The position numbers and the translations under genes were made by a program. The notes below the pieces were generated by a model that was not told the DNA's origin, made no database searches, and worked only from the letters and a program-made list of their open reading frames with translations. Shown in pieces: positions 5,142 to 36,073 of a DNA stretch of 64,000 nucleotides (within the stretch, counting starts at the first letter, position 1; every line of letters begins with the position of its first letter). Source of the stretch: Rhizobium sp. BK313 (GTDB taxonomy: Bacteria > Pseudomonadota > Alphaproteobacteria > Rhizobiales > Rhizobiaceae); contig NZ_JACHZQ010000002.1 of the NCBI RefSeq assembly GCF_014193655.1, forward strand, positions 310,001 through 374,000, read 5' to 3'.

Positions 5142-5213
5142 CCCCAATCTCCCTTTCAGGCGAGCAAATTGGTGACGGTGCGCTACCGGTTTATTTCATC
5201 GTTCCCAAAAGAC

Positions 5214-5416: not shown

Positions 5417-5836
5417 ATGATCAGGTTCGGGTTCGCCATCATATGTGTCGCCGCACTTGCAGGCTGCGTTCAGCTCGATTCGAGTTCTGGAGCGCGCACC
5501 GTGGCAAGCTACCGATGTGTACCGTCCGATGTGGCCTCTGGCTTTCAGGGCGGCGCGTCGAGCAGCGGCCATCAGGCCCGCCTGCTGACGGTCAATTACG
5601 ATGCGCTCGGCCAGCACGCCCTGCTCAGGATCGCGGGCGGTGAAACCAACACACTCAATCTGGTGCCGGGCGTGAAGGACCGCCTCTACGCAAACTCGAA
5701 ATACGCGTGGCAAAACAACGGACATGCGAACCTTCTCACGGACATTGCGGAGGTTCAGGTCTATCGCTGCACTCGCGCCGCGGCTGAACGGGGCGTGGCG
5801 GCGTGGCCGAAACTGGGGGCAGTGCCATGGCTCTGA
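5417..5836 (+). CDS. MliC-like lipoprotein, first gene of the fha operon; candidate immunity protein
   Basis: Protein of 139 residues. The ATG at 5417 has AGGA 5 bases upstream. Residues 1-17 are a lipoprotein signal ending L-A-G-C, so Cys17 would be lipidated. The mature part shows the MliC/PliC lysozyme-inhibitor pattern: Y-R-C near residue 34, a V-N-Y-D strand, a tyrosine/tryptophan strand near 96-99 followed by N-G-H-A, and a closing Y-R-C at 118, with Cys34 and Cys118 placed to form a disulfide. It overlaps fha by 10 bases, so it is part of the T6SS operon and occupies a place where other loci carry tssJ. It does not look like TssJ. With the divergent DUF2778 gene next to it, it could neutralise a cell-wall-cutting effector. 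The match is by eye. Confidence 0.6.
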   Translation: MIRFGFAIICVAALAGCVQLDSSSGARTVASYRCVPSDVASGFQGGASSSGHQARLLTVNYDALGQHALLRIAGGETNTLNLVPGVKDRLYANSKYAWQNNGHANLLTDIAEVQVYRCTRAAAERGVAAWPKLGAVPWL

Positions 5837-7158
5837 CATTAAGTATCCTGCGCTGTCCCGATGGAGTTCCGCCGGAAACGCGGCACGTGAGCGGTGGCGA
5901 ATTTACCATCGGCCGAGGGACCGAATGCAACTGGGTCCTGCCAGATCCGCAGCGCGTGCTGTCCAAGCGGCATTGCGCCGTGGCCTTCGATGGCAAGGTC
6001 TGGTGGGTGACGGACACCAGCACCAATGGCACTTTTCTCAATCAAGAGACTGACCGGCTCAACGTCGATACGCCGCGGGTGCTCAGGGACGGCGACCGGC
6101 TTGTGTTCGGCGCGTATGAGATCGAAGCGGTTTTCGATCGTCAGCCATCGGAAGCGAGCCTCGAAAGCCCGATCCAGGACGGCAACCCCGGCTATCTCGC
6201 CAGCGACCGGCTGACGCGAGACCCTTTCCCCGCGATGGGGACAGATCCGATGGCCGTCGCCCTCAAATCCGATGACCTGTCGCTGAATGCCGGGCCAGAC
6301 GGCTGGTCGGTTGACAAGTTTATCGGCTCGCCTCAGGCGATTTCCGATAACGTGCCGGTAATCCAAGAGAATTTCCGCGCCCCTCGCACCTCCTTCGAAC
6401 TGCTGCCGGAGGATTGGGACTCACCGGGACCGAACGACGCCGTGCCGGAATCAGCCGAATCAGCGCTGCCGGTGGCCGCGGAACCCGCCGCATTTCCACA
6501 GGTATCCGTACCGTCTGTTGTCTCGGACCTAGCACCGCAAGCGGCCGGCTTCGCGGCTCAGAATGGAGCCTCGATGGATGCGCTGGCTGCCTTCATCGCA
6601 GGGGCGGGGCTGCAGGGCACAATGCAGGGCGAGCCTATGGAATTGCTGCGCGGAATGGGCGAGGCATTCCGCGCAATGGTGACCGGCCTTCGCCGTATGA
6701 TGATCGCCCGGGCAGCGATCAAGGGCGAATTCCGCATTGAACAGACTGTCATCCGCCCCGTCGGCAACAACCCGCTGAAATTCTCCGCGAGCGACGAGGA
6801 TGCATTGGCGGCGCTGCTCGCAGTCGGTGGCCGCCGCGACATGACTGCGAAGGATGCAATAGCCGATGCATTGCGGGACATGCGCCTGCATGAGCTGGCG
6901 ATGTCATCGGCAATGCAGCAAGCGGTGCAGCATCTGATCGCCGAACTTGATCCGGCGCGTGTGAAGCGGGGGATCGAACACGAAACGTTGGACATTATGC
7001 CGGGACGGTACAAGGCACGCAGCTGGGATGCCTATGAAGCCCTGCATGGCAGCATCCTGCAGGCGCTTGCCGACGACTTTGACAGCGCGTTCGGCAAGTC
7101 CTTCGCCCGGGCCTATGAGCAGGCGATGACCGAGATTGCGGACCAGCTTGATGAATAG
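5827..7158 (+). CDS. tagH: T6SS FHA-domain protein (Fha/TagH, ImpI)
   Basis: Protein of 443 residues from the ATG at 5827, which follows a G-rich site; the GTG at 5803 would add eight residues without homology. Residues 18-75 form a forkhead-associated domain (I-G-R-G, S-K-R-H, T-N-G-T-F) that binds phospho-threonine. A long Pro/Ala-rich linker follows. The C-terminal 180 residues match the T6SS-specific FHA C-terminal domain. In TPP-type systems the kinase phosphorylates Fha and this activates sheath assembly. Kinase (31245-32747) and phosphatase (14052-14771) are both in the locus, so the full switch is present. Confidence 0.9.
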   Translation: MALTLSILRCPDGVPPETRHVSGGEFTIGRGTECNWVLPDPQRVLSKRHCAVAFDGKVWWVTDTSTNGTFLNQETDRLNVDTPRVLRDGDRLVFGAYEIEAVFDRQPSEASLESPIQDGNPGYLASDRLTRDPFPAMGTDPMAVALKSDDLSLNAGPDGWSVDKFIGSPQAISDNVPVIQENFRAPRTSFELLPEDWDSPGPNDAVPESAESALPVAAEPAAFPQVSVPSVVSDLAPQAAGFAAQNGASMDALAAFIAGAGLQGTMQGEPMELLRGMGEAFRAMVTGLRRMMIARAAIKGEFRIEQTVIRPVGNNPLKFSASDEDALAALLAVGGRRDMTAKDAIADALRDMRLHELAMSSAMQQAVQHLIAELDPARVKRGIEHETLDIMPGRYKARSWDAYEALHGSILQALADDFDSAFGKSFARAYEQAMTEIADQLDE

Positions 7159-8609: not shown

Positions 8610-9968
8610 ATGAGCGACAATCCATTTGCCGAACCGGGAGACGACGAAAGCACGATCATCCGCCCGATCCCCGGGGGGCGTGCCGCCGGCCCGCCCACTA
8701 CCGCGCCTCCGCCTGCCCCAGCCGAGGCCGACGCCGGTGTGCCCGTGGGGCCCGAGACCCGGATCGAATTCGCCGAACTGCCGTCCATCGGGGCATCGCC
8801 GATCGTGGCGGCCGCGGCGCCGCTGTTGTCGCTGGTGGCACGGCTGCGCAACGCCTTTTCGGTTCCGGACCCAGCCAGCCTGCGGGAGAGCGCGATCGAG
8901 GAGATGCGCCGTTTCGAGAAGGCCTTGCGCGACCAGAGCCTGCCCATGGAGCAGATTCGCCTGTCGCACTATGCGCTCTGTGCCAGCCTGGACGACGTGG
9001 TGCAAAACACCCCCTGGGGAAGCCGCGGCCCGTGGGCGGACGCGTCGCTGGTCTCGACCTTCCATCAGGAAGTGCGTAGTGGCGAACGCTTCTTCGATCT
9101 GCTGGAGCAACTGCGCCAGAATCTCGGGACCTTCCTGCCCGTGGTTGAGCTCATGTATCTTTGCATGTCGCTCGGGATGCAAGGCCGCTACCGGCTGTCG
9201 GCGCGCGGCCCCGCTGAACTCGACCGGGTTCGGGAGGAAACCTATGTCGCGATCATGCGGCAGAGACGGCCGGTCGAACGTGGCTTGTCGATCCACTGGA
9301 GGGGCATCACGGCGCCTTACCGCCAGATGCGGAGTTTCCCGGTTTGGCTCGCGGCGTTGCTTGCAATCGGCTTGCTGGTGCTGATCTACGCACTGCTCGC
9401 CTACAGTATCAACAGGGCGTCGGACCGGCTATTCGATGCGGCCCGTTCGCTTCCCCCGACACAGATGCCGACTATTGTCCGCACTACCCCGCCCAAGCCC
9501 GTGCCGCCCGCTCCGCGCGTGCCGGGAGAACTCGACAAGCTGGCGGGCTTCCTTGATCCCGAAGTGAAGCAGGGCCTCGTGACCATAGCCGGTACGGATG
9601 CGGTGCCGATCGTGCGAATCCTCAACCTCGGCATGTTCCGTTCGGGCAGCGCTGTCGTCGAACCAAGATTCTTGCCCGTCCTGGCACGGATTGGTGCGGC
9701 ATTGCGCACGGAACCCGGCCAGGTGGACGTTGTCGGCTATACCGACAACCAGCCGATCCACACGGTGAAGTTCCCGTCGAACTTCCAGCTGTCAAAGGCT
9801 CGCGCCCAGGCAGCCGCGGCGGTGATCGCGAATGCGATCGACGAGCCGGCCAGGCTGTCGACGCAGGGGCGGGCCGATGAAGACCCCATCGCCTCCAACG
9901 ACACGCCGGACGGGCGCCAGCAGAACCGGCGCATTGAAGTTGTCCTGCATAGGAAAAGTACCGACTGA
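8610..9968 (+). CDS. tssL: T6SS membrane protein TssL with OmpA-like C-terminus (ImpK)
   Basis: Protein of 452 residues. It has a Pro-rich N-terminus, the DotU/TssL cytoplasmic helical domain (about residues 50-240), one transmembrane segment (about 245-270) and a C-terminal OmpA-like peptidoglycan-binding domain (about 335-450) with G-Y-T-D-N and a late N-R-R-I-E. This is the extended TssL form that anchors itself to the wall. Such wall binding may partly offset the lack of the TssJ lipoprotein here, which is inference. The stop overlaps the tssM start. Confidence 0.95.
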   Translation: MSDNPFAEPGDDESTIIRPIPGGRAAGPPTTAPPPAPAEADAGVPVGPETRIEFAELPSIGASPIVAAAAPLLSLVARLRNAFSVPDPASLRESAIEEMRRFEKALRDQSLPMEQIRLSHYALCASLDDVVQNTPWGSRGPWADASLVSTFHQEVRSGERFFDLLEQLRQNLGTFLPVVELMYLCMSLGMQGRYRLSARGPAELDRVREETYVAIMRQRRPVERGLSIHWRGITAPYRQMRSFPVWLAALLAIGLLVLIYALLAYSINRASDRLFDAARSLPPTQMPTIVRTTPPKPVPPAPRVPGELDKLAGFLDPEVKQGLVTIAGTDAVPIVRILNLGMFRSGSAVVEPRFLPVLARIGAALRTEPGQVDVVGYTDNQPIHTVKFPSNFQLSKARAQAAAAVIANAIDEPARLSTQGRADEDPIASNDTPDGRQQNRRIEVVLHRKSTD

Positions 9969-12900: not shown

Positions 12901-13507
12901 CGACTTCGCCCGGTTGTTCGGGCCAGGCGGCGTGCTCGACACTTATTTCCAAAGCCAGATCAAACCCTTCGCGAACATGAACGCCGCCGTCTGGCAGCTA
13001 CAGCCACTTGGCGGTGTGGCCCCTCCCGTGAGCCAAGCCACCTTGGCCCTGTTCCAACGCGCCGCCGCCATCCGGGACGCATTCTTCCCGGCCGGCGGGG
13101 CGGCGCAGATCCGTTTCGACATCACGCCGCAGCCTCCGCGCGATGGCGAGGAACCGGCGACGCTTACTCTGGGCGGCAGGACAATCAGCACTGCGGATGG
13201 TGCTAGCGGCCAGGCATCCTTGACCTGGCCGGGCGCGGATGGACTTAACCCGGCGCGCGTGACGTTCGGGCAAGCCGGCGACGTCGTAGCCGCGGACGCC
13301 AGTGGATCCATCGGCGCCAGCGGTCCCTGGGCGCTGTTTCGGCTGCTGCAGCAGGCGCGGATATCGCCGTCCGGTCGGCCTCAGGAATTCTCCGTTACCT
13401 TTCGGTCCGGCATTCACGAAGCGAGGTTCACCTTGCGCGCCGGATCGTCCCGCAATCCGTTCGGCCGTAACCTTCTGAAGGATTTTCGATGCCCGGTGCT
13501 GCAATGA
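9968..13507 (+). CDS. tssM: T6SS membrane ATPase-like protein TssM (ImpL/IcmF)
   Basis: Protein of 1179 residues, normal for IcmF/TssM. Two N-terminal membrane segments (about residues 15-62) precede a cytoplasmic domain with Walker A G-P-P-G-S-G-K-T-T at 130-138. A third membrane segment near residues 435-455 leads into a long periplasmic part ending in the TssM C-terminal beta domain. With TssL it forms the trans-envelope channel. It overlaps tssL by one base, and tagF begins 19 bases inside its end. Confidence 0.95.
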   Translation: MENLQYLAAYFVNRWTYSFAGVGMASMLVWYLAPLIPGFDSYLARTLLVLAMVVIWAGVNGSISWVRRRRENTLAAGLTEESTLDERDVRAATAEEVARLRERVRTALRRLRKGGRRGYLYEQPWYVLIGPPGSGKTTALLNAGLNFPMGQLDGEETAVGGVGGTRLCDWWFADEAVLIDTAGRYTTQDSDTLVDRAGWEGFLDLLRRTRKRQPLNGAIVVVSLTDIAAADPATRAAHARTVRRRVTELSDRLRLRVPVYMVFSKADQLVGFNEYFDDLDAEGRGQVWGMTFPLAKGAETFTDEFRLLLDRLDERMFERLQAERAPDRRALLGGFPLQLASLQEPLADFLGQAFGGTRLDPAPFLRGVYITSATQEGTPIDRLTGMLSRSFGIDQKRAPSLRPVAGRSYFLKRMLGEVILGESLLVSANSKRMRRWRLLRIASFSAIAAVTLAISLGLWRAEASNRLAVERADEAIAGYRQQLAGANLDPVSDDDLPHIVPLLDAAQALPREPENWLAGVFGLSQSEKLEAVERSIYHNALERILLPRLIWRVEQQMRSQLDNPDFLFEATRTYLMLGGAGPLDPALVRDWMVLDWQARFPGVLNAQLREHLLAHLNALLSDPLPPVTLDGTLVQTARASFSRVSLAARVYGRIRPAASAKSVPDWIPAAELGSAGSSLFTRVSGKSLSEGIPGFFTVAGFQKVLLPNLVGATQAAASESWIFGQTPETPSVGADSQTLEREVVALYAADFQKQWDDMLNDLALAPFEDRPAAIQGLYVLSAPQSPMRDLLKSIASELTFMPTAKPTGDGTPATPAGDSGAAAAATAQQKSLAAAIGSAVAPDASSMPAIVDLDQHFRPLRDFVGDGQAEPITGVFRLINTLQQELAQLGPDASNVPATLQGSGDPVQLLLAESERQPPPLARWLQQIAASGRSMITGSVQHAAAAAFSGTDGPKKLCEAVVPHHFPFSFSNEDAPLDDFARLFGPGGVLDTYFQSQIKPFANMNAAVWQLQPLGGVAPPVSQATLALFQRAAAIRDAFFPAGGAAQIRFDITPQPPRDGEEPATLTLGGRTISTADGASGQASLTWPGADGLNPARVTFGQAGDVVAADASGSIGASGPWALFRLLQQARISPSGRPQEFSVTFRSGIHEARFTLRAGSSRNPFGRNLLKDFRCPVLQ

Positions 13508-14055
13508 ATGCACGGCAGGCCTCAGGCCCCTCGATAGGCTTCTTCGGCAAACTCCCGTCCCGGGGCGACTTCCTCCATGCGGGTTTGTCGTCGGACTTTA
13601 TTCAGGCCTGGGACCGATGGCTGCAACGCGTTCTGACCGATGGTCCGCGGATGCTCGGCGAGACCTGGCCCGAAGTGTGGCGGGTGGCGCCCGTCTGGCG
13701 TTTCGCCTTGCCGGGCGGGCAGTGCGGCCGGCAGCCCGTGTTGGGGCTGTGGATGCCAAGCGTCGACCGTGTCGGGCGGCCCTTTCCCCTGACATTCGCC
13801 GCAGAAGGTGCGGATCACGGCGATGCCTTCCTCGAGGCGGCCGAGCAGATCGGTCGGAATGCGATTGCCTCTGATCTGGCGCCTGAGGCGATGATGTCGC
13901 GACTACGCGATGCTTCGCCACCGGAACCGATGCTGGGCACCGCCGCCGGGCAGGCGCGCTGGTGGAGCGCAGGAGGCCCGTTCGTCGCGTCCACAGAATT
14001 GCTGCTGGATGGCCTGCCGGACAGCGTTGGATTTAACCGGATGCTGGGGCGGTGA
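13489..14055 (+). CDS. tagF: T6SS-associated protein TagF (ImpM)
   Basis: Protein of 188 residues. GAAGGA lies 6 bases before the ATG at 13489, inside the end of tssM. The opening G-F-F-G-K-L-P-S-R-G-D-F is the TagF signature. TagF proteins act after translation to hold T6SS activity down. In Agrobacterium, TagF is a domain fused to PppA in one polypeptide; here the two are separate genes overlapping by 4 bases, so they are translationally coupled. Confidence 0.92.
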   Translation: MPGAAMNARQASGPSIGFFGKLPSRGDFLHAGLSSDFIQAWDRWLQRVLTDGPRMLGETWPEVWRVAPVWRFALPGGQCGRQPVLGLWMPSVDRVGRPFPLTFAAEGADHGDAFLEAAEQIGRNAIASDLAPEAMMSRLRDASPPEPMLGTAAGQARWWSAGGPFVASTELLLDGLPDSVGFNRMLGR

Positions 14056-14771
14056 GCGAGGGGCTTCGCCATTGGGCTGCGTCACATCCCGGCGCTGTCC
14101 GGATGCAGAATCAGGATTCCTACATTTGCCGCCCGAACCTCGGCCTGTTCTCGGTCGCCGACGGCGCAGGCGGTCACAGTGACGGTGAGGTCGCCTCCGC
14201 CCAAGTGGTGAAACTACTGGAGGAAATGTCGGAGACGATCCCGCCGTCCGAGCGGTTGGCGGAGGTTCGTGTCCGCTTGCACGCCGCGCACAATTTGCTC
14301 CTTGAAAAGGGGCGGGCCCGGATCCCGCAGGTGACGCTGGCGACCACGGTTATCGTGCTGATGGTGCATGGGGACCATTTCGCTTTCCTGTGGGCGGGTG
14401 ACTCGCGCGGCTATCTGCTGCGCGACGGGATGCTGCATCGCCTGACCTCCGATCACAGCCTCGTCCAGGAATTGGTGGATTCGGGGACGATCACGACAGC
14501 CGAGGCCGAGACCCATCCCCATAGCAACGTGATCACCAGAGCCGTCGGCGCCGGCGGAGCCGAACTCTTGATCGACAAGGTTCGCGGTATCGCACAGCCG
14601 GGAGACCGGCTTCTGCTGTGCAGCGACGGCTTGTACAAGGCCCTGAGTTCAGACGAGATGGTCGAGATTATGGCTCAGGACGGCGATGTCGCTGAAATGC
14701 TCGTCGCGGCGGCGCTGGCCCGCCATGCGCGGGACAATATCACCGCCGTTGTGACGGCGTTCCGAGGTTGA
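14052..14771 (+). CDS. pppA: T6SS PP2C-type Ser/Thr phosphatase PppA
   Basis: Protein of 239 residues from GTG 14052, overlapping tagF. PP2C motifs are complete: N-Q-D-S near the start, V-A-D-G-A-G-G-H around residue 37, W-A-G-D-S-R-G, and D-N-I-T-A-V-V near the end, giving the metal-binding aspartates. It would remove phosphate from Fha or another target and switch the T6SS off, opposing the kinase at 31245-32747. It is the last gene of the first plus-strand operon. Confidence 0.93.
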   Translation: MSEGLRHWAASHPGAVRMQNQDSYICRPNLGLFSVADGAGGHSDGEVASAQVVKLLEEMSETIPPSERLAEVRVRLHAAHNLLLEKGRARIPQVTLATTVIVLMVHGDHFAFLWAGDSRGYLLRDGMLHRLTSDHSLVQELVDSGTITTAEAETHPHSNVITRAVGAGGAELLIDKVRGIAQPGDRLLLCSDGLYKALSSDEMVEIMAQDGDVAEMLVAAALARHARDNITAVVTAFRG

Positions 14772-20328: not shown

Positions 20329-21825
20329 ATGAACGACAAGGCTCTCCCCACAGACGCTTCAGCGCCGGCGTCAACCCGCACCGAGACGCTTGGCCTGCTC
20401 GATCAGGTCGTGTCCGCCACCAAGCAGACCGAGCCCGATCGTGCCCAGGATCTTGTCCGCACCCTCGTCGAGCAGGCCCGCACGGGCACGGTCATGTTCG
20501 ATCGCAACCTGACGCGGACGATTGAAAGGGCGATCACCATCATCGACCAGAAACTATCGGACCAGCTGAACGCCGTCATCCATGATCCGAAGTTCCTGAA
20601 GCTGGAAGGTAGCTGGCGCGGCCTCCACTATCTGATCATGAACAGCGAAACCAGCGCGATGCTGAAGATCAGGCTGATGAACATCTCCAAGCGCGAGCTG
20701 CACCGCGACCTGACGCGGGCCGTCGAATTCGATCAAAGCCAGCTATTCCGAAAAATCTACGAAAACGAATTTGGCACGCCAGGCGGGGAGCCCTACGGCG
20801 CCCTGATCGGTGACTACGAGTGGACAAACCATCCTGACGACATCGAGACGCTGCGGCTCATTTCCAACGTCAGCGCCGCGGCGTTCGCACCGTTCATCTC
20901 GGCCGCCGGCGCAGGGATGATGGGTTTCGAGCAGTGGACCGAGCTGTCGCGGCCGCGCGATTTGGCCAAGATCTTCGATACGGCCGAATATCTGAAATGG
21001 CGCGGCTTCCGCGACAGCGAGGACAGCCGGTTCGTCTCGCTGGTGATGCCCCGCGTCGTGGCGCGGCTCCCTTATGGCGCCCGCACCAAGCCGATCGACG
21101 AGTTTTCGTATGAGGAAGCCCCCGTCGATGCCGCCGGCGCTCCCCTGCCGATGGGTCATGAACAGTATTGCTGGATGAATGCAGCCTTTGTCATGGGCAC
21201 GCGGCTGACGGAGGCCTTCGCGCGCTACGGCTTTTGCACCGCGATCCGCGGCGCCGAAAATGGAGGGAAGGTAGACAACCTGCCGCAACACATTTTCATG
21301 TCCGATGACGGCGACATGGACGCGAAGTGCCCTACCGAGATCGGCATCACCGATCGGCGGGAATACGAATTGTCCAATCTCGGCTTCCTGCCGCTCTGCC
21401 ACTACAAGAACCACGACTATGCCGTGTTCTTCGGAGCCCAGACGATACAGAAGGCGAAGGAATACGACAGGCCCGACGCGACGGCAAACGCCCGGATCTC
21501 GACACGCCTGCCCTACATCATGGCCACCGGACGCTTTGCGCATTACTTGAAGATCATGGCGCGCGACAAGATCGGCAGCTTCATGGAAGCTGAAGACTGC
21601 GAGGCTTGGCTGAATCGCTGGATCACAAACTACGTCAACACCAACGAAAATGCAGGCGCCGACAGCAAGGCCCGTTATCCGCTTCGGGAAGCGCGTGTCG
21701 AGGTGAAGGAAATCCCTGGCCGGCCGGGTGCCTACAACGCGATCGCCTATATGCGTCCCTGGCTGCAAATGGAAGAACTGACGGCCAGCATGCGCATGGT
21801 GGCTCGTATTCCCGAGCGGGTCTAA
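20329..21825 (+). CDS. tssC: T6SS sheath large subunit TssC (TssC41-type, ImpC)
   Basis: Protein of 498 residues, the standard sheath subunit. Visible family motifs include L-E-G-S-W-R-G-L-H-Y, the F-D-Q-S-Q-L-F-R-K-I-Y-E-N-E-F-G-T-P-G-G run, and the C-terminal H-Y-L-K-I-M-A-R-D-K-I-G. Agrobacterium and Rhizobium imp loci encode two TssC proteins of different size; this one is the closer match to canonical TssC. It is followed one base later by a second, divergent TssC gene. Confidence 0.95.
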   Translation: MNDKALPTDASAPASTRTETLGLLDQVVSATKQTEPDRAQDLVRTLVEQARTGTVMFDRNLTRTIERAITIIDQKLSDQLNAVIHDPKFLKLEGSWRGLHYLIMNSETSAMLKIRLMNISKRELHRDLTRAVEFDQSQLFRKIYENEFGTPGGEPYGALIGDYEWTNHPDDIETLRLISNVSAAAFAPFISAAGAGMMGFEQWTELSRPRDLAKIFDTAEYLKWRGFRDSEDSRFVSLVMPRVVARLPYGARTKPIDEFSYEEAPVDAAGAPLPMGHEQYCWMNAAFVMGTRLTEAFARYGFCTAIRGAENGGKVDNLPQHIFMSDDGDMDAKCPTEIGITDRREYELSNLGFLPLCHYKNHDYAVFFGAQTIQKAKEYDRPDATANARISTRLPYIMATGRFAHYLKIMARDKIGSFMEAEDCEAWLNRWITNYVNTNENAGADSKARYPLREARVEVKEIPGRPGAYNAIAYMRPWLQMEELTASMRMVARIPERV

Positions 21826-21826
21826 T

Positions 21827-23380
21827 ATGACGGCGGCGCTGCAACTTGAGGAAGTGGGGCGGGATGCGCCCCCCTTGCGGCTACATGTCCTCGCCGGTCG
21901 GAAAGGCGACAGGGGGAGTGAGGCGATTGCCGACCGGCTCACGCACTTCCTGCGCCAGGAGAGTGGCGCGCTTGCGGGATGGTTCGGCCTCCCGCTCGCC
22001 AGAGAACTGCAGCGCAATCCGGATCGTCTGCGTGGCTTGCTGGATCAGGATATTGCGGCGATCGATGAGCTGCTCTCGGCGCAGCTCGATGAGATCCTGC
22101 ACCATCCGCGGTTTCAACGCCTGGAGGGATCTTGGCGGGGGCTGGCCTGGATGATCGACGGATTCGATCCTGGAGCGCGCCTCAAGACCAAGCTTCTGCC
22201 GGCGTCATGGCAGGACCTCGACCGCGACTTCGCCAGAATGAGCGAATTCGATCAGTCCGCTTTGTTTCGTTTGATCTATGAGAATGAGTTCGGCATGGCC
22301 GGCGGCGAGCCGTTAGGACTGCTGGTCGTTGATCACGAGCTCCGGCATGTGCCGGAGCGATCGCGGCCAGGCGCAGCCGCACCGGTGGACGACATATCGG
22401 TGCTGTCGGCCCTGGCCTCGGTCGGGGCTGCGGCCTTCGTGCCCATCGTGCTGGCGGCGTCACCGGCCTTGCTCGGTGTCGATCAGTTCGAAGATCTCGC
22501 ATTGTCCAGTGATGTGGCAGCTTCATTCCGGGACGATGATCACCTGCGCTGGCGTCAGCTGGCAACGCGGGAGGATACGCGGTTTGTCTGCGTCACTCTG
22601 CCCCGCGCGCTGGCGCGGCCCCGCTGGCGGTCGGAGCCGGCGCGCGCGGACGGGTTCCGCTATGAGGAATATGCACCCCAAAGCTGCCATCGCACCTGGT
22701 CGGTCGCCTGCTATGCCTTTGCCGCGGCGGTCGGTCGCGCGCAATCACTGCATAACTGGCCAGCCGATATCCGCGGTGTCAGCGCCGACCGCATCGGCGG
22801 CGGGCTGGTGCTGGACCTGCCTGCCGAAGCCTTCGTGCTTGGGCCGGAGACGGTGTGGAACCGTCCTTCGCTTGACCTTGCACTGACCGACCGGCAGGAA
22901 CGGGACTTGGTGGGAGTCGGCATGATGCCACTCAACACGCTACCCTATGGCGATGCGGCATTTGCGGCCGTGCACAGCCTGCAGACCAGGCCGACAAACC
23001 CGCCCGGGAGGGACCCGACGCCGGCGATTGCCAACAGGGGGTTGTCGGCGCAGATCAACGCGATGCTCTGCGTCTCGCGCTTCGCCCACTACATCAAGAT
23101 CATGGGGCGCGAGATGACGGGCTCCTCCCTGACCGCGGCTGAGATCGAGCGCCGCCTGCAGATCTGGCTCTCGGGCTACACCAATGCCAGCCCTAATGCC
23201 GGACCCGACAGTCGGGCGCAGCATCCTTTGATATCGAGCCAGATCAGGGTGCACGAGCTCGATGGCCGGCCGGGTTCCTTTGGCTGCATTGTCCACCTGC
23301 AGCCCTATCACCAGCTCGACGACGTTTCGATGATCTTCCGACTGGTCACGGGCCTCTCTTTCGAAAAGGCAATCCGCTGA
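21827..23380 (+). CDS. Second TssC-family protein (TssC40-type, ImpD)
   Basis: Protein of 517 residues that aligns with TssC over its whole length (L-E-G-S-W-R-G-L-A-W, F-D-Q-S-A-L-F-R-L-I-Y-E-N-E-F-G, H-Y-I-K-I-M-G-R-E-M-T-G). The sequences have clearly diverged from the upstream tssC, so this is an old duplication rather than a recent copy. Imp-type loci of Agrobacterium and Rhizobium carry the same pair in the same order. It may form part of the baseplate or sheath base. Confidence 0.92.
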   Translation: MTAALQLEEVGRDAPPLRLHVLAGRKGDRGSEAIADRLTHFLRQESGALAGWFGLPLARELQRNPDRLRGLLDQDIAAIDELLSAQLDEILHHPRFQRLEGSWRGLAWMIDGFDPGARLKTKLLPASWQDLDRDFARMSEFDQSALFRLIYENEFGMAGGEPLGLLVVDHELRHVPERSRPGAAAPVDDISVLSALASVGAAAFVPIVLAASPALLGVDQFEDLALSSDVAASFRDDDHLRWRQLATREDTRFVCVTLPRALARPRWRSEPARADGFRYEEYAPQSCHRTWSVACYAFAAAVGRAQSLHNWPADIRGVSADRIGGGLVLDLPAEAFVLGPETVWNRPSLDLALTDRQERDLVGVGMMPLNTLPYGDAAFAAVHSLQTRPTNPPGRDPTPAIANRGLSAQINAMLCVSRFAHYIKIMGREMTGSSLTAAEIERRLQIWLSGYTNASPNAGPDSRAQHPLISSQIRVHELDGRPGSFGCIVHLQPYHQLDDVSMIFRLVTGLSFEKAIR

Positions 23381-26573: not shown

Positions 26574-27721
26574 TGACCGCATCCGCCATACCAGGCCAGA
26601 CAAGCGATCTGGATCTATCCCATTCCTCAGTTGAGGCGACTGTGGAAATCGCAGAGCAGGACAGAGCCGATGCGCGCGCGCGGCCGCGCAGTCGGTCCCT
26701 GTTGCAGACCCTGGTCGAAGACCCGGCCCGGTTCAATTTCGATGCCGCCGTTGCGATCCTCATGCGGGCCACAGGCCAGGCCGACCCCGGCGAGGCAGTA
26801 CGCTTCCATGCGGCCGCCGGCCTCGGCTTCGTCGCCTCCGACATGATGGCGGTCGAGCAAGTGGAGAGCCGCTTCAGGGCAACGACGGGCCTGATCGGTC
26901 TGACCGGGCCGTCCGGCGTTCTGCCGCGCCCCTATACTGACACGGTCAATAGCCAGCAGAGGCAACGCACCCCCGCCCTGGCTGAATTCCTCGATGTCCT
27001 CGCCCAGCGGCCCATCGCGCAATTTGCACAGGCCGGCATCAAATATCAGCCGCATCGGGTAGCAACCGCCGCCTCTTTAGCGGACCGGTCGTCAGCTGCC
27101 ACGCCCGCAGACGGGTTGCGCGACATCCAGCTTGCGCTCACCGGCTACGGAACGCCGCATCTGGCATCCCGGCTGGCAGTCGGCTCGGAACCGCTGATGT
27201 TTTATGCCGGCCTGTTTTCGGCATGGCCGCGATCGGCGGACTCTCTCGCGGCGATTGTTTCCGACTGGCTCGGGCGGACCGTGGAGGTCGAACAATTCGC
27301 GGGTGCTTGGCTTCCCCTCGGCCGGGACGAGGTCTCGGTCCTCCCGTCCGGGAATAGCCCAGGCCAATTCTGCCGCCTCGGGGTCGACGCCGCGATCGGC
27401 AGCCGTGCTTGGGACGTCCAGGCCCGGATTATCCTGCACATTGGCCCGCTGGATCTGCCCGGATTCGAGGCGATGCTGCCGGACCGCGACCTTCTGCGTC
27501 GCGTCACGTCGCTGGTCCGGGCCTATTTGGGGTTTGAAACCGATTTCGCTGTCAATCCAATTTTGGCGGCCGCCTCGGTCCCCGCCCTCGAAATCAAGAC
27601 GGCAACACCACCGCGGCTCGGTTGGAACAGCTGGCTGCCGACAACCGGGCTCCGTCAGCATGACGCACCAGAGGCGCTGTTCGAGGCAGGCCTGATAGAA
27701 CACTTGGGAGAAAGATCATGA
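26570..27721 (+). CDS. tssG: T6SS baseplate protein TssG (ImpH)
   Basis: Protein of 383 residues. After a variable N-terminus of about 40 residues comes the TssG core with L-V-E-D-P-A-R-F-N-F-D-A-A-V, G-L-I-G-L-T-G-P-S-G-V-L-P and a C-terminal L-G-W-N-S-W-L. Two adjacent ATGs (26570, 26573) overlap the tssF stop. The stop overlaps the next gene, a methyltransferase, by 4 bases, so the operon continues. Confidence 0.94.
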   Translation: MMTASAIPGQTSDLDLSHSSVEATVEIAEQDRADARARPRSRSLLQTLVEDPARFNFDAAVAILMRATGQADPGEAVRFHAAAGLGFVASDMMAVEQVESRFRATTGLIGLTGPSGVLPRPYTDTVNSQQRQRTPALAEFLDVLAQRPIAQFAQAGIKYQPHRVATAASLADRSSAATPADGLRDIQLALTGYGTPHLASRLAVGSEPLMFYAGLFSAWPRSADSLAAIVSDWLGRTVEVEQFAGAWLPLGRDEVSVLPSGNSPGQFCRLGVDAAIGSRAWDVQARIILHIGPLDLPGFEAMLPDRDLLRRVTSLVRAYLGFETDFAVNPILAAASVPALEIKTATPPRLGWNSWLPTTGLRQHDAPEALFEAGLIEHLGERS

Positions 27722-29208
27722 CTTGGAATAGCGGCTATGTCACCGACATCATCTACACCACAGGGTATTACGACCAGCAGGCACCCTCCCAGATTGCTCT
27801 GTCATGCCTGCTCGGAAACGTGGCCCCCAGCTTTGCCCGCCGGTCGGAGCAACTGACCTACCTGGAACTCGGCTGCGGCCGTGGACGTGGGGCGTTGTGC
27901 CTGGCCGCCAGCAATCCGGAATGGCGGGTCGTCGCCATCGACTTCATGCCCGCGCATATCGAGGAGGCGCGTGAATTGGCGGCCGAGGCTGGGATCGACA
28001 ATATCGAATTCATCGAAGCCGATTTCGCCACTCTCGACCCGCGCGAGCTGCCAGAGGTCGATGTCGCCAGCGCTCATGGGGTGTGGAGCTGGGTGTCTGA
28101 CGATGTCCGCGCCGGCATCGTGCGCATCCTCGGTAGCCGTCTGCGTCCGGGCGGCGCTTTCCATCTGAGCTACAACTCATTGCCGGGATGGCAGGGAGCC
28201 ATCGGGCTCCAGCGCCTGATCCACACGGCGGGACGGCGCATTAGCGGTCGTAGTGATCGCAAGGCGGAGGCAGCCCTGGAGCTGGTGCAGGCGCTCGGTG
28301 CGGCAGATGCTTTCCATCTTGGTCAGAGCGATCTGGTTCAGATGTTGAGGAAGGATTTATCGAGCATGCCACGGGAGTATGTGGCGCACGAATACATGAA
28401 CGATGACTGGCGGCCTTGCTTCCAGGCTGATGTCGCTGCGGCGCTTGCGGACGCCAAGCTCGAATACGTGGCGTCGGGGGAGATTCTCGAGAATTTTCCG
28501 CAGCTGATGCTGACCGACGAACAGCGCGCCGTCTGGGACCGGATCGACGATCCCGCTCTGCGCGAGTTGGCGAAGGATTTCTGCCTGCCCCGCGGCCTGC
28601 GCCACGACATCTATGTGCGGGGACCGCGGCGCATCAGCGATGCTGCCCGGGACGCTGCGCTCGCCGATCTGTATCTGACTTTGACGCGACGGCCCGAGGA
28701 TTTCATCTACGAACTCAATCTCCCGGCCGGACACGGCGCCCTTGAGCGGAGCTTCTACGAGCCGGTGGTGGCCGCGTTGGGGCAGGGGCCGCAGCGGATC
28801 GGTGATCTGATGTCGCTCGCCGGTCGCGGCGGACGGCGTGACAACCCGGCCGAGCTTGCCGGCATGCTGGTCGGCACCTCGCAAGCCATCGTTATGGCGC
28901 GTCGGGACGCCGACACCGGCGAGGCGGCAACGCGCCTCAACAATCACATCGCAATGCGAGTGCTGCGCGGAGATCCTTCACATGGCGCCTTGGCGAGCTT
29001 GCGGCTCGGCAGCGGCCTGCGTTGCAGCGGCGATCACTACGTCACGGCTTCGATGATGCACAGGCTCGGCGCTGATTCGTCGGTGGATCGTTGGGCCGAC
29101 ACGATCGGACTGAAGGCCGAGGGTGCGGGGCGTGAAAAGTTCCTGAAGGCGGCGGAGGAGACACGCCTTCGGCAGCTGCGCGTGTGGAAGCATGCAGGAA
29201 TCATCTGA
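27718..29208 (+). CDS. SAM-dependent methyltransferase with regulatory domain, in the T6SS operon
   Basis: Protein of 496 residues. Residues 48-160 form a Rossmann methyltransferase with motif I L-E-L-G-C-G-R-G (50-57) and an acidic post-motif strand V-A-I-D-F. The middle resembles the methyltransferase regulatory domain (PF10119 type), and the C-terminal 150 residues are a winged-helix-like part. The start overlaps the tssG stop as ATGA, so it is translated with the baseplate genes. It is not one of the 13 core T6SS genes. It could modify a T6SS component or an effector, but nothing in the sequence identifies the target. Confidence 0.75.
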   Translation: MTWNSGYVTDIIYTTGYYDQQAPSQIALSCLLGNVAPSFARRSEQLTYLELGCGRGRGALCLAASNPEWRVVAIDFMPAHIEEARELAAEAGIDNIEFIEADFATLDPRELPEVDVASAHGVWSWVSDDVRAGIVRILGSRLRPGGAFHLSYNSLPGWQGAIGLQRLIHTAGRRISGRSDRKAEAALELVQALGAADAFHLGQSDLVQMLRKDLSSMPREYVAHEYMNDDWRPCFQADVAAALADAKLEYVASGEILENFPQLMLTDEQRAVWDRIDDPALRELAKDFCLPRGLRHDIYVRGPRRISDAARDAALADLYLTLTRRPEDFIYELNLPAGHGALERSFYEPVVAALGQGPQRIGDLMSLAGRGGRRDNPAELAGMLVGTSQAIVMARRDADTGEAATRLNNHIAMRVLRGDPSHGALASLRLGSGLRCSGDHYVTASMMHRLGADSSVDRWADTIGLKAEGAGREKFLKAAEETRLRQLRVWKHAGII

Positions 29209-29235
29209 GATGCGGGCGAAACGGAGAACGTGACT

Positions 29236-30375
29236 ATGCAGAATTTGTCATTCCCTGGTTTCCTGGCCGCGGCGGTATGCGCCCTGGCCCTATCCCTGAC
29301 CCCGCAGCCCGCTTCGGCGGATGCCGACAAAGCGGCGCTGGTGATCGGCAACGGCACCTATGCCGGCGGACACCCGCTCGCCGCCTGCGACCAATCGGCC
29401 CGTGACGTCGGTGGATGGCTGCAACGCCAAGGGTTCGAGGTGGTGCAGGTGCTCGATGCCTCGTCTGTGGACATGCGAAAAGCGATCGGTGATTTCGTGG
29501 CACAGGTGTCGGGTACGCCACAGAGAGCGACGATCATCTATGTCTGTAGCTATGCCGCCGTCGCAAACCAGCGCTTGTTCATGCTGCCGGTGGATTCGGA
29601 TCCCGGCCAGCCTACGCGCCTCGAGACGCAAGGCGTCATCCTCAAGGCCTTGTTGAACACCCTTGCCGGCAGCAACGGCGTGCTCTTCGCCGACCTTGGC
29701 CTACAGCCAGACAAGAACGCCGCCGACGCAATCAATCTCATCCAAACGGGGTTACCCGCGGGCGTGCATCTTGCAGTCGTTGCTGGTAACGACGATAGCG
29801 TCGGGGCGCTGGGCCACAACCTTCCCGACCTGCTGTCCGGTTCGGGGCAGGACTGGGCCAGATTGTCAGCGGCATTTCAGGCGCAGTATGGCTTCGTACG
29901 AGGGAACGGGCTGGCCGTCTTCGCGCCGCTTTCCGGGCCGATACCGCCGACGCTCTATGCGAGCGACGGATCGGCGTCCGTGGCCCCGTCCACCGGGGAG
30001 GAGAAGTCCGCGCCGACGACCGCCGGCCAGGTCGTTCCGCTCGATGCGTCGCCTAAGATCTCCGATCCTGCGAAGAGCGGGCCAGACCGGCTCGCGATCG
30101 CGACCAAAGACGGCACGACCAAGGATGCGGTTTCCACCCCGGAGGCAGCGGCGCCTCGCGTCACGACCACTCAACGCGCAACCCGGCCGGATCGGAAGGC
30201 TAGCCGTATCCAGACCGCCCTGGCTGACGCTGGCTTTTACAAAGGACCCATCAACGGGCGCCTCGACGCGCGAACAAAGCACGCCATTCGCCTTTTTCAA
30301 AGAAGGATCGGCGATGCGCCAAGTGGCGTGCTGACACAGATCCAAATCGCAAAACTGCTGAACATCAGGCGATAA
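29236..30375 (+). CDS. Secreted caspase-like pseudo-peptidase with peptidoglycan-binding domain
   Basis: Protein of 379 residues. The ATG at 29236 has GGAG 9 bases upstream; GTG 29230 is too close. Residues 1-28 are a signal peptide ending A-S-A. Residues 33-210 follow the caspase p20 fold (A-L-V-I-G-N-G-T-Y, G-F-E-V-V, L-F-M-L-P-V-D), but the Y-Y-x-G-H-G catalytic His motif is replaced by Y-V-C-S-Y-A (102-107), and the D-A-C-R Cys motif by F-A-D-L-G (151-155). The enzyme is therefore probably inactive. After a Pro/Thr/Ser-rich linker, residues 311-375 are a PG_binding_1 domain. It would sit in the periplasm on the wall. It is 21 bases after the methyltransferase and 4 bases before the sensor gene. 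Confidence 0.75.
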   Translation: MQNLSFPGFLAAAVCALALSLTPQPASADADKAALVIGNGTYAGGHPLAACDQSARDVGGWLQRQGFEVVQVLDASSVDMRKAIGDFVAQVSGTPQRATIIYVCSYAAVANQRLFMLPVDSDPGQPTRLETQGVILKALLNTLAGSNGVLFADLGLQPDKNAADAINLIQTGLPAGVHLAVVAGNDDSVGALGHNLPDLLSGSGQDWARLSAAFQAQYGFVRGNGLAVFAPLSGPIPPTLYASDGSASVAPSTGEEKSAPTTAGQVVPLDASPKISDPAKSGPDRLAIATKDGTTKDAVSTPEAAAPRVTTTQRATRPDRKASRIQTALADAGFYKGPINGRLDARTKHAIRLFQRRIGDAPSGVLTQIQIAKLLNIRR

Positions 30376-30379
30376 GCAG

Positions 30380-31255
30380 ATGACTTTTCGGGCAAAATTC
30401 AATCTCGTGATGCTGGTAGCCTTCCTCGTGGGATTGGGCCTGGCCGGAGTATTCCTCAACACCGTCAGCGAGCGTGGGGCAAAGCGGGCGGTATTGGCGG
30501 AGGCCGCTGCGGTCATGGGTGCGGCAGACGCCACCATCCATTATACCGACCAGCAGGTATCGCCATTGCTGAACAGGCAGATGAAGGCTCAGTTCCTGCC
30601 GCAGAGCATTCCGTTCTACGCCGCGCAGCAGACCTTCCAGCTCATGGCAAGCGCCTTCCCGGACTATGCCTTTCGCCAGCCAACGACCAATCCCACCAAC
30701 CCGGCCGACCGGCCCGTGCCGTGGGAGGCCGATATCATCAAGAAGCTGGTCGAGCAGCCAAACTTGGACCAGCTGGTGGTGGAACGAACGACGAGCACCG
30801 GCAAGGTCCTGTCCTATGCGCGCCCGGTTCGGGTCAATAGCGACACCTGCCTCGCCTGTCACTCGACCCCCGAAGCCGCGCCTGCCTCCATGGTCGATAT
30901 CTACGGCCGGGAAAACGGATTCGGCTGGAAGGTGGGCGACACCGTCGGGGCACAGATTGTCTCGATTCCCGAACGCGTTCCCTTGGCGAGTGCACGGTCG
31001 AACCTCTATCTCCTCATGGGTGGGCTGACGATCATTTTCGTCTTGATGCTTTTCCTGCTCAACCTGTTATTGCACTTTTTCATCGTCGTGCCGGTGCGCC
31101 GGATCTCCAAGCTGGCGGATGAGGTCAGCCTGGGCAATATGGAGGTTCCCGAATTTCAGCTTTCGTCCCGGGACGAGATCGGGTCGCTGGCGGTGTCCTT
31201 CAACCGCATGCGCCGCAGCCTGGTCGCAGCGATGGGGATGCTGAATGAGCGATGA
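30380..31255 (+). CDS. Membrane heme-type sensor (DUF3365/Tll0287-like) with HAMP and no output domain
   Basis: Protein of 291 residues. One membrane segment at residues 8-27, a periplasmic domain of about 180 residues, a second membrane segment at 209-236 and a HAMP domain at 237-288. The periplasmic part resembles DUF3365 (Tll0287-like) and carries C-L-A-C-H at 157-161, a c-type heme attachment motif. In other bacteria this sensor is fused to kinases or chemoreceptors; here the protein ends right after HAMP. Its last 11 bases overlap the Ser/Thr kinase gene. I infer that it is the input half of a split receptor for the kinase. Confidence 0.75.
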   Translation: MTFRAKFNLVMLVAFLVGLGLAGVFLNTVSERGAKRAVLAEAAAVMGAADATIHYTDQQVSPLLNRQMKAQFLPQSIPFYAAQQTFQLMASAFPDYAFRQPTTNPTNPADRPVPWEADIIKKLVEQPNLDQLVVERTTSTGKVLSYARPVRVNSDTCLACHSTPEAAPASMVDIYGRENGFGWKVGDTVGAQIVSIPERVPLASARSNLYLLMGGLTIIFVLMLFLLNLLLHFFIVVPVRRISKLADEVSLGNMEVPEFQLSSRDEIGSLAVSFNRMRRSLVAAMGMLNER

Positions 31256-32747
31256 GCCCGTCTCTCAATCCCTGCCTGCCTTCGTCGGACGATTCCGCAT
31301 TGACGCCGTGCTCGGCCGCGGGGCGATGGGTGTTGTCTACAAGGCCTACGATCCGCAGATCGAGCGGCCGGTTGCGATCAAGCTGGTGCGGGCCGATCTT
31401 CTCGAAAGCGAGGATCGGGATGAATATCTGCGGCGCTTCAACAACGAAGCCAGGATCGCCGGCCGCTGCCTGCATGCAAACATCGTCGCAATTTATGATT
31501 TCGCCTTGCACGAAGGCAATCCGTTCCTCGTCCTTGAGTATGTCGAAGGGGTCAGTCTCAGCCAGGCGTTCAAGCGCGGCACGCAGGCGAGCGTTTCGGA
31601 GGTAACTCATATTGCCTTGCAGGTGCTTGATGCCCTCAGCTACGCGCACGCCTTCGGCATCATCCATCGAGACATCAAGCCCGCGAATATCCTGCTGACG
31701 GCCAACGGCCGGCTGAAAGTCACCGATTTCGGCATTTCGCGGCTCACAAGCACTGGGTTTACTCAGGGCGCGATGATGGTTGGGACGCCAAGCTATATGT
31801 CGCCCGAACAATGTTTCGGCGGGCCTGTCGATCAGCGCTGCGACCTCTTTTCGCTGGGGTGCGTCATCTACGAGCTATTGGCTGGCGAGCGCGCGTTCAG
31901 CAGCCTCAACCATGCGGACGTAATCTACAAGCTCGTCAACCTCCCACATCCGTCGTTGCGGGATAAGCGGCCGGACGTGCCGCGAGAAATCGCTGGTATT
32001 GTGGACCGGGCGCTGGCGAAGCGAGCCGATGACCGCTTTGCCAGCGCCGAAGACATGGCCACCGCGTTTCGGGGCCTGTCCGAGACCAAGACCGAGACCG
32101 ATCCGGTCAACCGCCTGACGAGAGAGGCGGAAGAACACGAGACGATCGTCGTGTCGTCCTCCAGGGGGCAAATATCGCCCCCTCCCGACACTTCGCTGCG
32201 GTCGCTCGGTGATTTCGAGGGCCTCGACGAATCCTCTGTTGCCACGATCGAGCGGAGCCTTGCTCGCCACATCGGTCCAATGGCGCGGTTCCATCTGCGC
32301 CGCGCCATGCTGGATGCCCATTCTCCCGATGAGCTCTGCCGGCTCCTGGGCCAGTTGGTTCCGCAGGAGGATCTGCGGGACCAGTTTGTCGATGACGCGA
32401 TCAAGATCATCACCGCACGCCAGGATCAAAGCATAGGCGCCGCAAAGGCGGCGGAGCAAGGATCAGGTGCTTCGATCTCGCGGCCGATTCCGGGTCAGCC
32501 GCGCCCCGCGGCGGAGGCGATCGAAAGCATTACGCGCGCCCTGACGCATACGATGGGTCCTATGGCGCGCCATCTGGTGAGGCGCGCGTTGGAGCGCTCT
32601 ACAACGCTGGATGAACTGCAAGCGCTTTGTTTGGAGGTGATCGACAACGTCGATGAACGCCGACGGTTTCAAAACCTGCTTGCGGATCGAGGTTATCCCG
32701 GGTCGCTGCCGGTGTCGGTCCGAGATCTGTCCGGTGACCAGATGTGA
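31245..32747 (+). CDS. ppkA: T6SS Ser/Thr protein kinase (TagE/PpkA, ImpN)
   Basis: Protein of 500 residues. Residues 15-275 are a Hanks-type kinase with all key motifs: G-R-G-A-M-G-V-V-Y, A-I-K, H-R-D-I-K-P-A-N, D-F-G and S-P-E-Q. The C-terminal part contains two copies of a helical repeat of about 50 residues built around I/M-G-P-M-A-R and T/S-x-x-E-L (about 323-380 and 425-475). No membrane segment is seen, unlike PpkA of Pseudomonas. It closes the second plus-strand operon. It would phosphorylate Fha or TssL to start T6SS assembly, countered by PppA. Confidence 0.92.
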   Translation: MSDEPVSQSLPAFVGRFRIDAVLGRGAMGVVYKAYDPQIERPVAIKLVRADLLESEDRDEYLRRFNNEARIAGRCLHANIVAIYDFALHEGNPFLVLEYVEGVSLSQAFKRGTQASVSEVTHIALQVLDALSYAHAFGIIHRDIKPANILLTANGRLKVTDFGISRLTSTGFTQGAMMVGTPSYMSPEQCFGGPVDQRCDLFSLGCVIYELLAGERAFSSLNHADVIYKLVNLPHPSLRDKRPDVPREIAGIVDRALAKRADDRFASAEDMATAFRGLSETKTETDPVNRLTREAEEHETIVVSSSRGQISPPPDTSLRSLGDFEGLDESSVATIERSLARHIGPMARFHLRRAMLDAHSPDELCRLLGQLVPQEDLRDQFVDDAIKIITARQDQSIGAAKAAEQGSGASISRPIPGQPRPAAEAIESITRALTHTMGPMARHLVRRALERSTTLDELQALCLEVIDNVDERRRFQNLLADRGYPGSLPVSVRDLSGDQM

Positions 32748-35057: not shown

Positions 35058-35801
35058 TCACCAAGGTCGAAAAGGGGCGCCCAAGTTGAGTGGAGCCAAC
35101 TGAGGTGGAGCGCTATTAGTATGTGGGGCCGGCCAAAGCTCATGCCAAGTCCACGGTCCGCGTGTCACTTCGTCCGCCAAGGCGAGCCTTATAGCATCCA
35201 AATCATGATTTTGATTTCCTTGGATGCGTTCCAGGGCCACCACCCTCCCGACATGGGTCTTTCCCCACTCCGCCACAAAGTCGCCCCTGATATTGAAGCA
35301 GAGCCCGACGGCATCATCAGCTTTCACTGCGTGGCGGGAACGCGCCATCTGGCGAGGCTTGAGAAAGTTGTATGTCGAAGCTCTCAGGTGCCTTGCCATA
35401 CCTGGGCCATTGAAGGAGATGAACGGGTGGTTTGACCAGGCACCGATCACCTGTGCTAATCCGCCCCCAAGCGAATGGCCGACAATCGAGATCGGCTTGT
35501 TGAGCCGTTCGGCCCAGCGTACCAAGGCCTGCCCTGAGCCTGCCATGTTGGGAATGACATAAATGCCAATTCTGGCATTGGCGGTGTTCTGCGATATCGG
35601 CGCAGTGAGCGGTCCGCCCATCGTCCCCGAAAAGGCGACGATGACTTCTTTATTGTCCTCGAAAATACCCCCCTGGAATCCGTTTCCATACCAAGTCGCG
35701 GTTTCCCATTTCTGAATTTTCCACCTCGCGGTGCTCCATGTTGCGACGTCGCGGCTGTAAACGGCATCGGCGATGTTGAGGTAGTCGGAAATGCTCGCCA
35801 T
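35058..35801 (-). CDS. Class-3-type lipase, candidate T6SS phospholipase effector
   Basis: Protein of 247 residues from the ATG at 35801, preceded by AGGA; the longer frame to 35960 lacks a ribosome site and contains the regulatory box. The nucleophile elbow G-H-S-L-G-G at 108-113 gives Ser110, within a lipase_3-like domain (F-S-G-T about 58-61, S-F-N-G-P after the elbow). A His in N-Q-N-H-D-L-D may complete the triad. There is no signal peptide, as expected for T6SS cargo. It lies tail-to-tail with vgrG, and a near-perfect copy of the T6SS box lies 83 bases upstream. Both facts support an effector role, though phospholipase activity is inferred. Confidence 0.75.
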   Translation of the reverse strand: MASISDYLNIADAVYSRDVATWSTARWKIQKWETATWYGNGFQGGIFEDNKEVIVAFSGTMGGPLTAPISQNTANARIGIYVIPNMAGSGQALVRWAERLNKPISIVGHSLGGGLAQVIGAWSNHPFISFNGPGMARHLRASTYNFLKPRQMARSRHAVKADDAVGLCFNIRGDFVAEWGKTHVGRVVALERIQGNQNHDLDAIRLALADEVTRGPWTWHELWPAPHTNSAPPQLAPLNLGAPFRPW

Positions 35802-35883
35802 ATGTGTCCTGCATCTAGATGACTCGGGAACGACTTGCTTGATGGGCAGGTGTTTCCTGTTGATGTCAGAGGCTGATGGGTAT

Positions 35884-35897
35884 GTTGCAGTCGTAAC
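35884..35897. promoter_or_regulatory. Candidate T6SS regulon box, copy 5 (GTTGC-AGTC-GTAAC)
   Basis: One base differs from the perfect box. It lies 83 bases upstream of the lipase start (minus strand) and 177 bases upstream of the DUF3455 gene on the plus strand. Confidence 0.45.
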
Positions 35898-36073
35898 AGT
35901 TGACTTGACGGGCGCGGCCGCCCTGGCAAGCAAGAATTGCATTTTCGACCTACAGCTCATGGCGGCGGCCGTCGTGTTTCAATTGCATTCGAAATTCTCC
36001 AGGTCCGTAATCGATGCGCAACGTGGCGCCTCCATAACGGAATGGTCTTATTTCGGTGAAGGGAGCTGCCACC

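Follow-up and report, generated by a model that had tools for sequence, protein, structure and literature searches.

How does a Ser/Thr kinase without a membrane segment, encoded amid the genes of a type VI secretion system (T6SS), obtain its signal? The question arises from two overlapping genes of Rhizobium sp. BK313, which has a genome of 8.0 Mb. They lie in a window, i.e. the whole stretch of DNA analysed, of 64,000 nucleotides (contig NZ_JACHZQ010000002.1, positions 310,001 to 374,000), from whose first letter all positions below are counted. A stand-alone receptor of 291 amino acids (aa; 30380..31255, plus strand) is followed by a soluble Ser/Thr kinase of 500 aa (31245..32747, plus strand). 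With a probability of roughly 65 %, the two form a split receptor, in which a heme-Cache/HAMP membrane protein drives the T6SS kinase in trans via a STAC-like adaptor, the GPxA repeat, in the tail of the kinase. This tail, and not the missing membrane segment, is the telling feature of the kinase and the strongest evidence for its coupling to the receptor.

The receptor consists of two membrane segments (residues 8-26, 30401..30457, hydropathy 2.42; residues 218-236, 31031..31087, hydropathy 2.89), a periplasmic Tll0287/DUF3365 (sCache_heme) domain and a HAMP domain, all on the plus strand like the kinase features below. The periplasmic domain was matched by PF11845 (Tll0287-like, formerly DUF3365) at residues 33-197, with an E-value of 1.6e-36 and 126.3 bits against a cut-off of 24.1. 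It contains the sequence motif for c-type heme attachment, CLACH (residues 157-161, 30848..30862), whose two cysteines are the only ones of the protein; an axial cysteine of the Tll0287 or P. putida type is therefore missing. The HAMP domain (residues 234-282, 31079..31225, Pfam E-value 1.1e-10) is the sole cytoplasmic domain and is followed by about 9 residues, and Pfam revealed no output domain at an E-value of 0.1. Pfam and hydropathy thus confirmed the initial annotation, which had described, from the DNA letters alone, a DUF3365-like sensor with a C-x-x-C-H motif at 157-161, two membrane segments and a HAMP domain but no output. The best-matching named relative, from Rhizobium sp. P32RR-XVIII, was 94 % identical. 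A second PF11845 protein in the same genome (L002, G000:C2:469179-469616) was short and had no HAMP match.

Judged from the motif, the receptor probably carries a covalent c-type heme, and it presumably forms a dimer. In the available part of a 2026 preprint, CxxCH is given as conserved at >= 99 % in the sCache_heme family, and the P. azotoformans protein WP_033902098 is described as a dimer in detergent with two membrane helices, HAMP and c-heme that releases nitric oxide (NO) at a rate of 6.25e-4 per second, does not form a stable complex with oxygen and has no axial cysteine; in a stand-alone P. putida protein with Cys/His ligation, NO release is fast (PMC12889525). The receptor of the window shares with WP_033902098 two membrane segments, PF11845 with CxxCH, HAMP, the lack of an output domain and the lack of an axial cysteine. 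From this architecture and the absence of a spare cysteine we infer NO as the ligand. A receptor that senses redox or another heme ligand, with the wiring otherwise unchanged, is somewhat unlikely: the preprint, as far as available, gives redox-related roles to stand-alone HAMP-less domains, and the window genome had no copper nitrite reductase over the cut-off (NirS was not searched), yet the receptor offers no cysteine beyond CxxCH for axial ligation and has two membrane segments plus HAMP in common with the tight NO binder. The same sensor domain occurs in DUF3365 histidine kinases, chemoreceptors and GGDEF proteins, where the output is fused to it in cis. For WP_033902098 no partner is named in the available text (PMC12889525), whereas the receptors studied here are paired with a GPxA-tailed effector, often together with a T6SS.

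The kinase gene starts within the receptor gene, the two open reading frames (ORFs) sharing the 11 bases noticed initially (31245..31255), which suggests translational coupling. The kinase domain (31299..32048; PF00069 at residues 19-268, E-value 1.3e-51) contains VAIK, HRDIKPAN and DFG. This Hanks kinase with intact motifs is encoded in a T6SS locus together with Fha and PppA, and is the only one of the four kinase matches of the genome (E-value 1e-8) at this T6SS locus. PADLOC matches of the protein (PD-T4-6 and others) fall inside the kinase domain. A hydropathy scan found no membrane segment, in agreement with the initial annotation. T6SS genes lie on both sides. The Pseudomonas/Serratia type of PpkA has a membrane segment and a periplasmic domain of its own; the window kinase has neither. 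Solubility as a distinguishing trait, as first assumed, had to be given up: a convincing membrane segment was likewise missing from four kinases close to three T6SS loci that have no sensor gene, one locus being the second T6SS of this genome and the others belonging to two further genomes. These four had neither a receptor nor a GPxA repeat; in one of them (324 aa) hydropathy rose to 1.93 early in the kinase domain, a peak that was discounted, as were peaks of 1.61-1.97 in 7 of 40 receptor-paired kinases, all within the kinase domain. The T6SS stretches L199/L200 and L202 contained no kinase.

To what extent receptor and kinase travel together was seen in regions of at most 20 kb retrieved around 54 receptor matches (numbered with L). 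Fifty-one receptors were counted, namely all above 300 bits plus the one of the window, minus two duplicates (L120 was equated with L037 and L139 with L003 because their contigs are equally long). Excluded were the lower-scoring L111, L115, L138, L154, L116, L119 and L145, and, L181 excepted, those matches of the phylum search (L052-L068) for which no region was retrieved. The CxxCH motif was kept in 51/51 receptors, and a kinase lay directly 3' on the same strand in 45 of them. The partners of the remaining six were a kinase upstream beyond a caspase-fold gene (2), a TIR protein (1) and an MscS-like channel (1); for two, none was found. Hence the survey of gene pairs suggested with the initial annotation revealed a conserved pair. 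Three of the 45 kinases end at contig ends, and two have an added cyclase region, one of these checked by Pfam. Two kinases (L113, L158) matched the kinase profile with 449 and 348 bits, yet not the HRD pattern. In 43 loci, which include the TIR locus but neither the window nor two loci whose ORF calls were too long, the gap between receptor and partner was -11 to +49 nucleotides; these values are rough, because ORF starts were set at the first possible start codon. Among the excluded receptors, L111, L115, L138 and L154 had MscS-like partners with GPxA, L116 a T6SS-linked kinase carrying one GPxA repeat, while L119 and L145 were fused in cis to GGDEF-like domains (by eye) and had no GPxA in their regions.

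The pairing recurs in many other bacteria. PF11845 occurred in 82 of 394 genomes of the window's family, only four matches exceeding 120 bits. A search with the receptor alignment detected 3/80 genomes in the genus, 16/200, 8/39 and 14/80 in three families, 7/385 in the class and 19/398 in the phylum, most of the latter in longer open frames and four above 380 bits. On plasmids, tblastn matched nine records. Five neighbourhoods were viewed: on those of Rhodovulum, Skermanella, Caballeronia and Paraburkholderia a Ser/Thr kinase followed the receptor directly 3', in three of the four beside T6SS genes, and the cyanobacterial one had no annotated kinase within the 11 kb shown. Some genomes hold several receptors. 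Genome G748 has three (L109, L110, L111), one partnered by a T6SS-linked kinase, one by a further kinase and one by an MscS-like channel, and the genomes of L130 and L161 (G1220, G1316) each hold another receptor with a kinase (L129; L160, its kinase cut by the contig end).

At their C-terminal ends the kinases carry one or two GPxA repeats of about 55 aa, which the initial annotation overlooked, and so do the non-kinase partners, i.e. TIR proteins, MscS-like channels and kinase-cyclases. The window kinase has two, at 32232..32390 (E-value 6.9e-18) and 32511..32669 (E-value 3.2e-17), each itself a seed of the profile. Among the 16,506 ORFs of the regions under study, a profile built on the tails of 14 T6SS-linked kinases matched 52, a count that includes its own seeds and two duplicated regions; in 20 control regions around other PF11845 genes it matched none. 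It matched the TIR partner (8.5e-18), the kinase-cyclases (about 1e-30) and four MscS-like partners (6.4e-13, 5.3e-13, 7.7e-9 and 0.0037); the fifth, L154, was missed by it and matched by a broader profile. Pfam identified the TIR protein, one kinase-cyclase and four MscS-like partners, L154 being assigned by resemblance only. The TIR protein with its C-terminal GPxA beside a heme-Cache/HAMP receptor (L153:2546-3241) is possibly a gas- or redox-gated TIR effector. With the broader profile, exactly one GPxA ORF was present in 46 of the 51 receptor regions, 44 times directly 3' on the strand of the receptor and twice upstream with one gene between; three of the five regions without GPxA were cut by contig ends. 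Across 279 genomes of the phylum, with no more than 24 candidates scored in each, GPxA was detected in four, each time in a gene adjoining a receptor, the receptor content being known only for these four. A tail search of 72,556 plasmid records yielded five matches, all receptor-bearing, and the TIR tail matched none of these records. No Pfam or NCBIfam family for the repeat came over its cut-off; EAD7 was sub-threshold at E-values of 0.02-0.03.

A precedent may exist in the archaeal proteins AF1503 and AF1502. In AF1503, HAMP is the sole cytosolic part, and its gene is translationally coupled to that of AF1502, which is a STAC domain of four helices; the family motif LGPx(x)A connects helices 1 and 2, and AF1503-like receptors, HAMP-only receptors without a recognisable effector module, are often coupled to small proteins with this common motif, as stated in the available part of PMC4834066. 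The repeats of the window carry IGPMA and MGPMA, fitting an LGPx(x)A-type motif. Under two GPxA profiles AF1502 ranked first among 177,635 PDB sequences (E-values 0.076 and 0.12), and the solved HAMP nearest to that of the receptor is AF1503. Both systems have HAMP as sole cytosolic part and a neighbouring gene, in the window probably coupled in translation, whose product has a GPxA-type motif in a domain that is helical in AF1502 and tentatively predicted to be so in the kinase tail. They differ in that AF1502 is a separate 68-residue protein and GPxA is fused here to kinases, TIR, cyclases or channels, with a similarity below threshold, and in that the receptor of the window bears a heme-Cache domain, unlike AF1503. 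From ranking and gene context, a remote homology of the GPxA repeat to the AF1502 STAC domain is likely but unproven, and the repeat is the likely coupling element. It is unlikely that the repeats do something else, such as kinase dimerisation or substrate docking, the receptor being coupled otherwise. The kinase tails studied here often hold the repeat in two tandem copies, which could pair with one another, and Af1502 was judged monomeric, a complex with its receptor not being described in the available text (PMC4834066); however, the repeat is common to unrelated effectors whose joint property is the neighbouring receptor, and the four kinases near receptor-less T6SS loci were devoid of it.

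The pair was associated with T6SS genes. A retrieved region was labelled by hand as T6SS-linked if it contained at least two core genes, with TssH, VgrG and Fha not counting. This applied to 28 of the 44 receptors that could be judged, against 1 of the 20 control loci; seven of the 51 receptors were not judgeable owing to short stretches. A search of 51 genomes or records for TssK matched 35. The receptor-kinase pair is present in 11 of the other 16 (one of these 11 is no more than a plasmid record, and some genomes are incomplete), so the pair also occurs outside T6SS. These genomes and the unlinked loci would suit a passenger pair that merely sits at the T6SS locus and whose kinase has targets unconnected with it, but the linkage at most judgeable loci and at all 16 kinase pairs sampled in one family, and the presence of Fha, TagF and PppA within the same locus here render this distinctly unlikely. 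A chance juxtaposition of two unrelated genes is negligible in view of a gene order and a close spacing conserved in distant genomes. The T6SS input postulated initially is partly supported, by the conservation of the pair and by the c-heme and NO binding of a protein of like architecture (PMC12889525); the module itself is not specific to T6SS.

Several observations weigh against the split receptor and its NO-sensing, T6SS-directed role. Sixteen of the 44 judgeable loci had fewer than two T6SS core genes, and the T6SS label switched 7 times or more along a quickly built receptor tree, in which support was weak for 17 of the 48 inner branches; a T6SS-only module is rejected, the pair being found at unlinked loci and in TssK-less genomes. 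Receptors without a partner exist (L130, L161), no GPxA partner being present in their retrieved regions. The distances of sensors and kinases correlated (r 0.90, 37 pairs), which is uninformative because joint inheritance alone would give it. The GP in all 93 domains matched by the kinase-tail profile arises by construction, because the seeds were chosen by the GP pattern. Likewise, the GPxA profiles descend from receptor neighbours, and the specificity test used kinase tails alone. The match to AF1502 was below significance and 22-24 residues long, a single-sequence search with the TIR tail matched designed repeat proteins and not AF1502, and the nearness of the HAMP domain to AF1503 says little, because many solved HAMPs are AF1503 constructs. 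AlphaFold models from a two-sequence alignment were too poor for a fold search, with a predicted local distance difference test (pLDDT) score of 45 and 40; helices were predicted in the kinase tail, at a pLDDT mostly of 50-70. Specificity for NO is drawn from a single protein of the preprint in its available part (PMC12889525). A copper nitrite reductase over the cut-off was present in 4 of 39 pair genomes and absent from that of the window, NirS not being searched, and own denitrification via this enzyme as NO source is unsupported.

In the mechanism we propose, a dimeric sCache_heme/HAMP receptor would carry its covalent c-type heme in the periplasm, where a heme ligand or a redox change, most likely NO, would trigger it. 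HAMP would relay the change through the membrane, and the soluble kinase would dock on the cytoplasmic HAMP by its C-terminal GPxA repeats, which may be a bacterial form of the STAC domain, a separate small protein beside archaeal HAMP-only receptors. Docking and rearrangement would then set the kinase activity. The kinase would act as the PpkA of the threonine-phosphorylation pathway on Fha and/or TssL, opposed by PppA. Upon phosphorylation of these proteins, T6SS assembly or firing would follow the periplasmic signal. We infer the docking through GPxA, the sign of its effect and the kinase targets. As the window kinase is devoid of a periplasmic part for TagR- or RtkS-like proteins, the receptor would supply such a part in trans.

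This arrangement can be compared with known PpkA-PppA-Fha pathways, described in the available parts of PMC10482370, PMC6082577 and PMC3953482, with which it shares a Ser/Thr kinase, a PP2C phosphatase, Fha and TagF in a single T6SS locus. In P. aeruginosa TagQRST senses attack, and RtkS acts in Serratia (PMC10482370), where it binds the periplasmic domain of PpkA; TagQRST was described as restricted to Pseudomonas (PMC6082577). In Pseudomonas and Serratia, TagR or RtkS contacts a periplasmic domain that belongs to PpkA itself, whereas the soluble window kinase probably takes its input from a heme receptor encoded by another gene. PpkA of Agrobacterium phosphorylates TssL at Thr 14, TagQRST being lacking there (PMC3953482), and an unknown protein promotes its action (PMC10482370). 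Among the open-licence papers listed in our searches, we recognised none that describes the heme-receptor/T6SS-kinase pairing.

The T6SS locus extends from Fha at 5803 to VgrG at 34849. Upstream of the pair are encoded Fha, TssK, TssL, TssM, TagF, PppA, TssH, TssA, TssB, two TssC-like proteins, ImpE, TssE, TssF and TssG, downstream VgrG; a single Hcp query had no match in the window. Fha (5803..7158, plus strand), with an FHA domain and T6SS_FHA_C, is a candidate phospho-readout, and TssL with an OmpA-like domain (8610..9968, plus strand) a candidate kinase substrate by analogy with Agrobacterium, as far as described in PMC3953482. TagF (13489..14055) and a PppA-like PP2C phosphatase (14052..14771) follow on the plus strand. 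Near the end of the locus stand, in this order, a gene for a caspase-fold/peptidoglycan-binding protein with an N-terminal hydrophobic segment (29230..30375, plus strand; 4 bases before the receptor), the receptor and the kinase. Relatives of the caspase-fold gene adjoin the pair in six other regions (L003, L109, L110, L113, L140, L156).

Further genes of the window may be mentioned. The tandem TssC-like genes (20329-21825 and 21827-23380) matched TIGR03355 with 687 and 347 bits, and the second copy is present again in L003, L109 and L116. A methyltransferase with a PF10119 regulatory domain (27718-29208) lies within the locus, and another genome has a relative of it among its T6SS genes (L197/L198). 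Two possible T6SS effectors are encoded on the minus strand, a Tlde1-domain protein near the locus edge (4059-5147; PF10908, E-value 1.6e-27) and, directly past VgrG, an ORF of 300 aa (35058-35960) with a sub-threshold match to Lipase_3 (E-value 0.0067). A sigma-70 family, extracytoplasmic function (ECF)-like sigma factor is encoded at 1926-2474. Several betaproteobacterial loci have a similar sigma factor gene close to the receptor pair, and in L037 it adjoins catalase and anti-sigma genes. The genes upstream in betaproteobacterial loci appeared FecR-like by eye; in Pfam two had no match and a third a sub-threshold match to FecR.

Beyond this locus, it is an even question whether the pair belongs to a general class of stand-alone heme-Cache/HAMP receptors with exchangeable effectors (Ser/Thr kinases, kinase-cyclases, TIR proteins, MscS-like channels) that dock by a STAC-related C-terminal adaptor, AF1503/AF1502 included. 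GPxA-tailed proteins offer candidate effectors for HAMP-only receptors, and the partner of the NO-binding receptor WP_033902098 is predicted to be a neighbouring gene with a GPxA tail. If the coupling is true, the bacterial effectors would reveal what HAMP-only receptors act on. The pairing suggests a missing input signal for the T6SS: the receptor-kinase pair offers a concrete input for PpkA-type systems in alpha- and betaproteobacteria, and its recruitment to T6SS loci would, if true, tie T6SS firing to the periplasmic NO or redox state.

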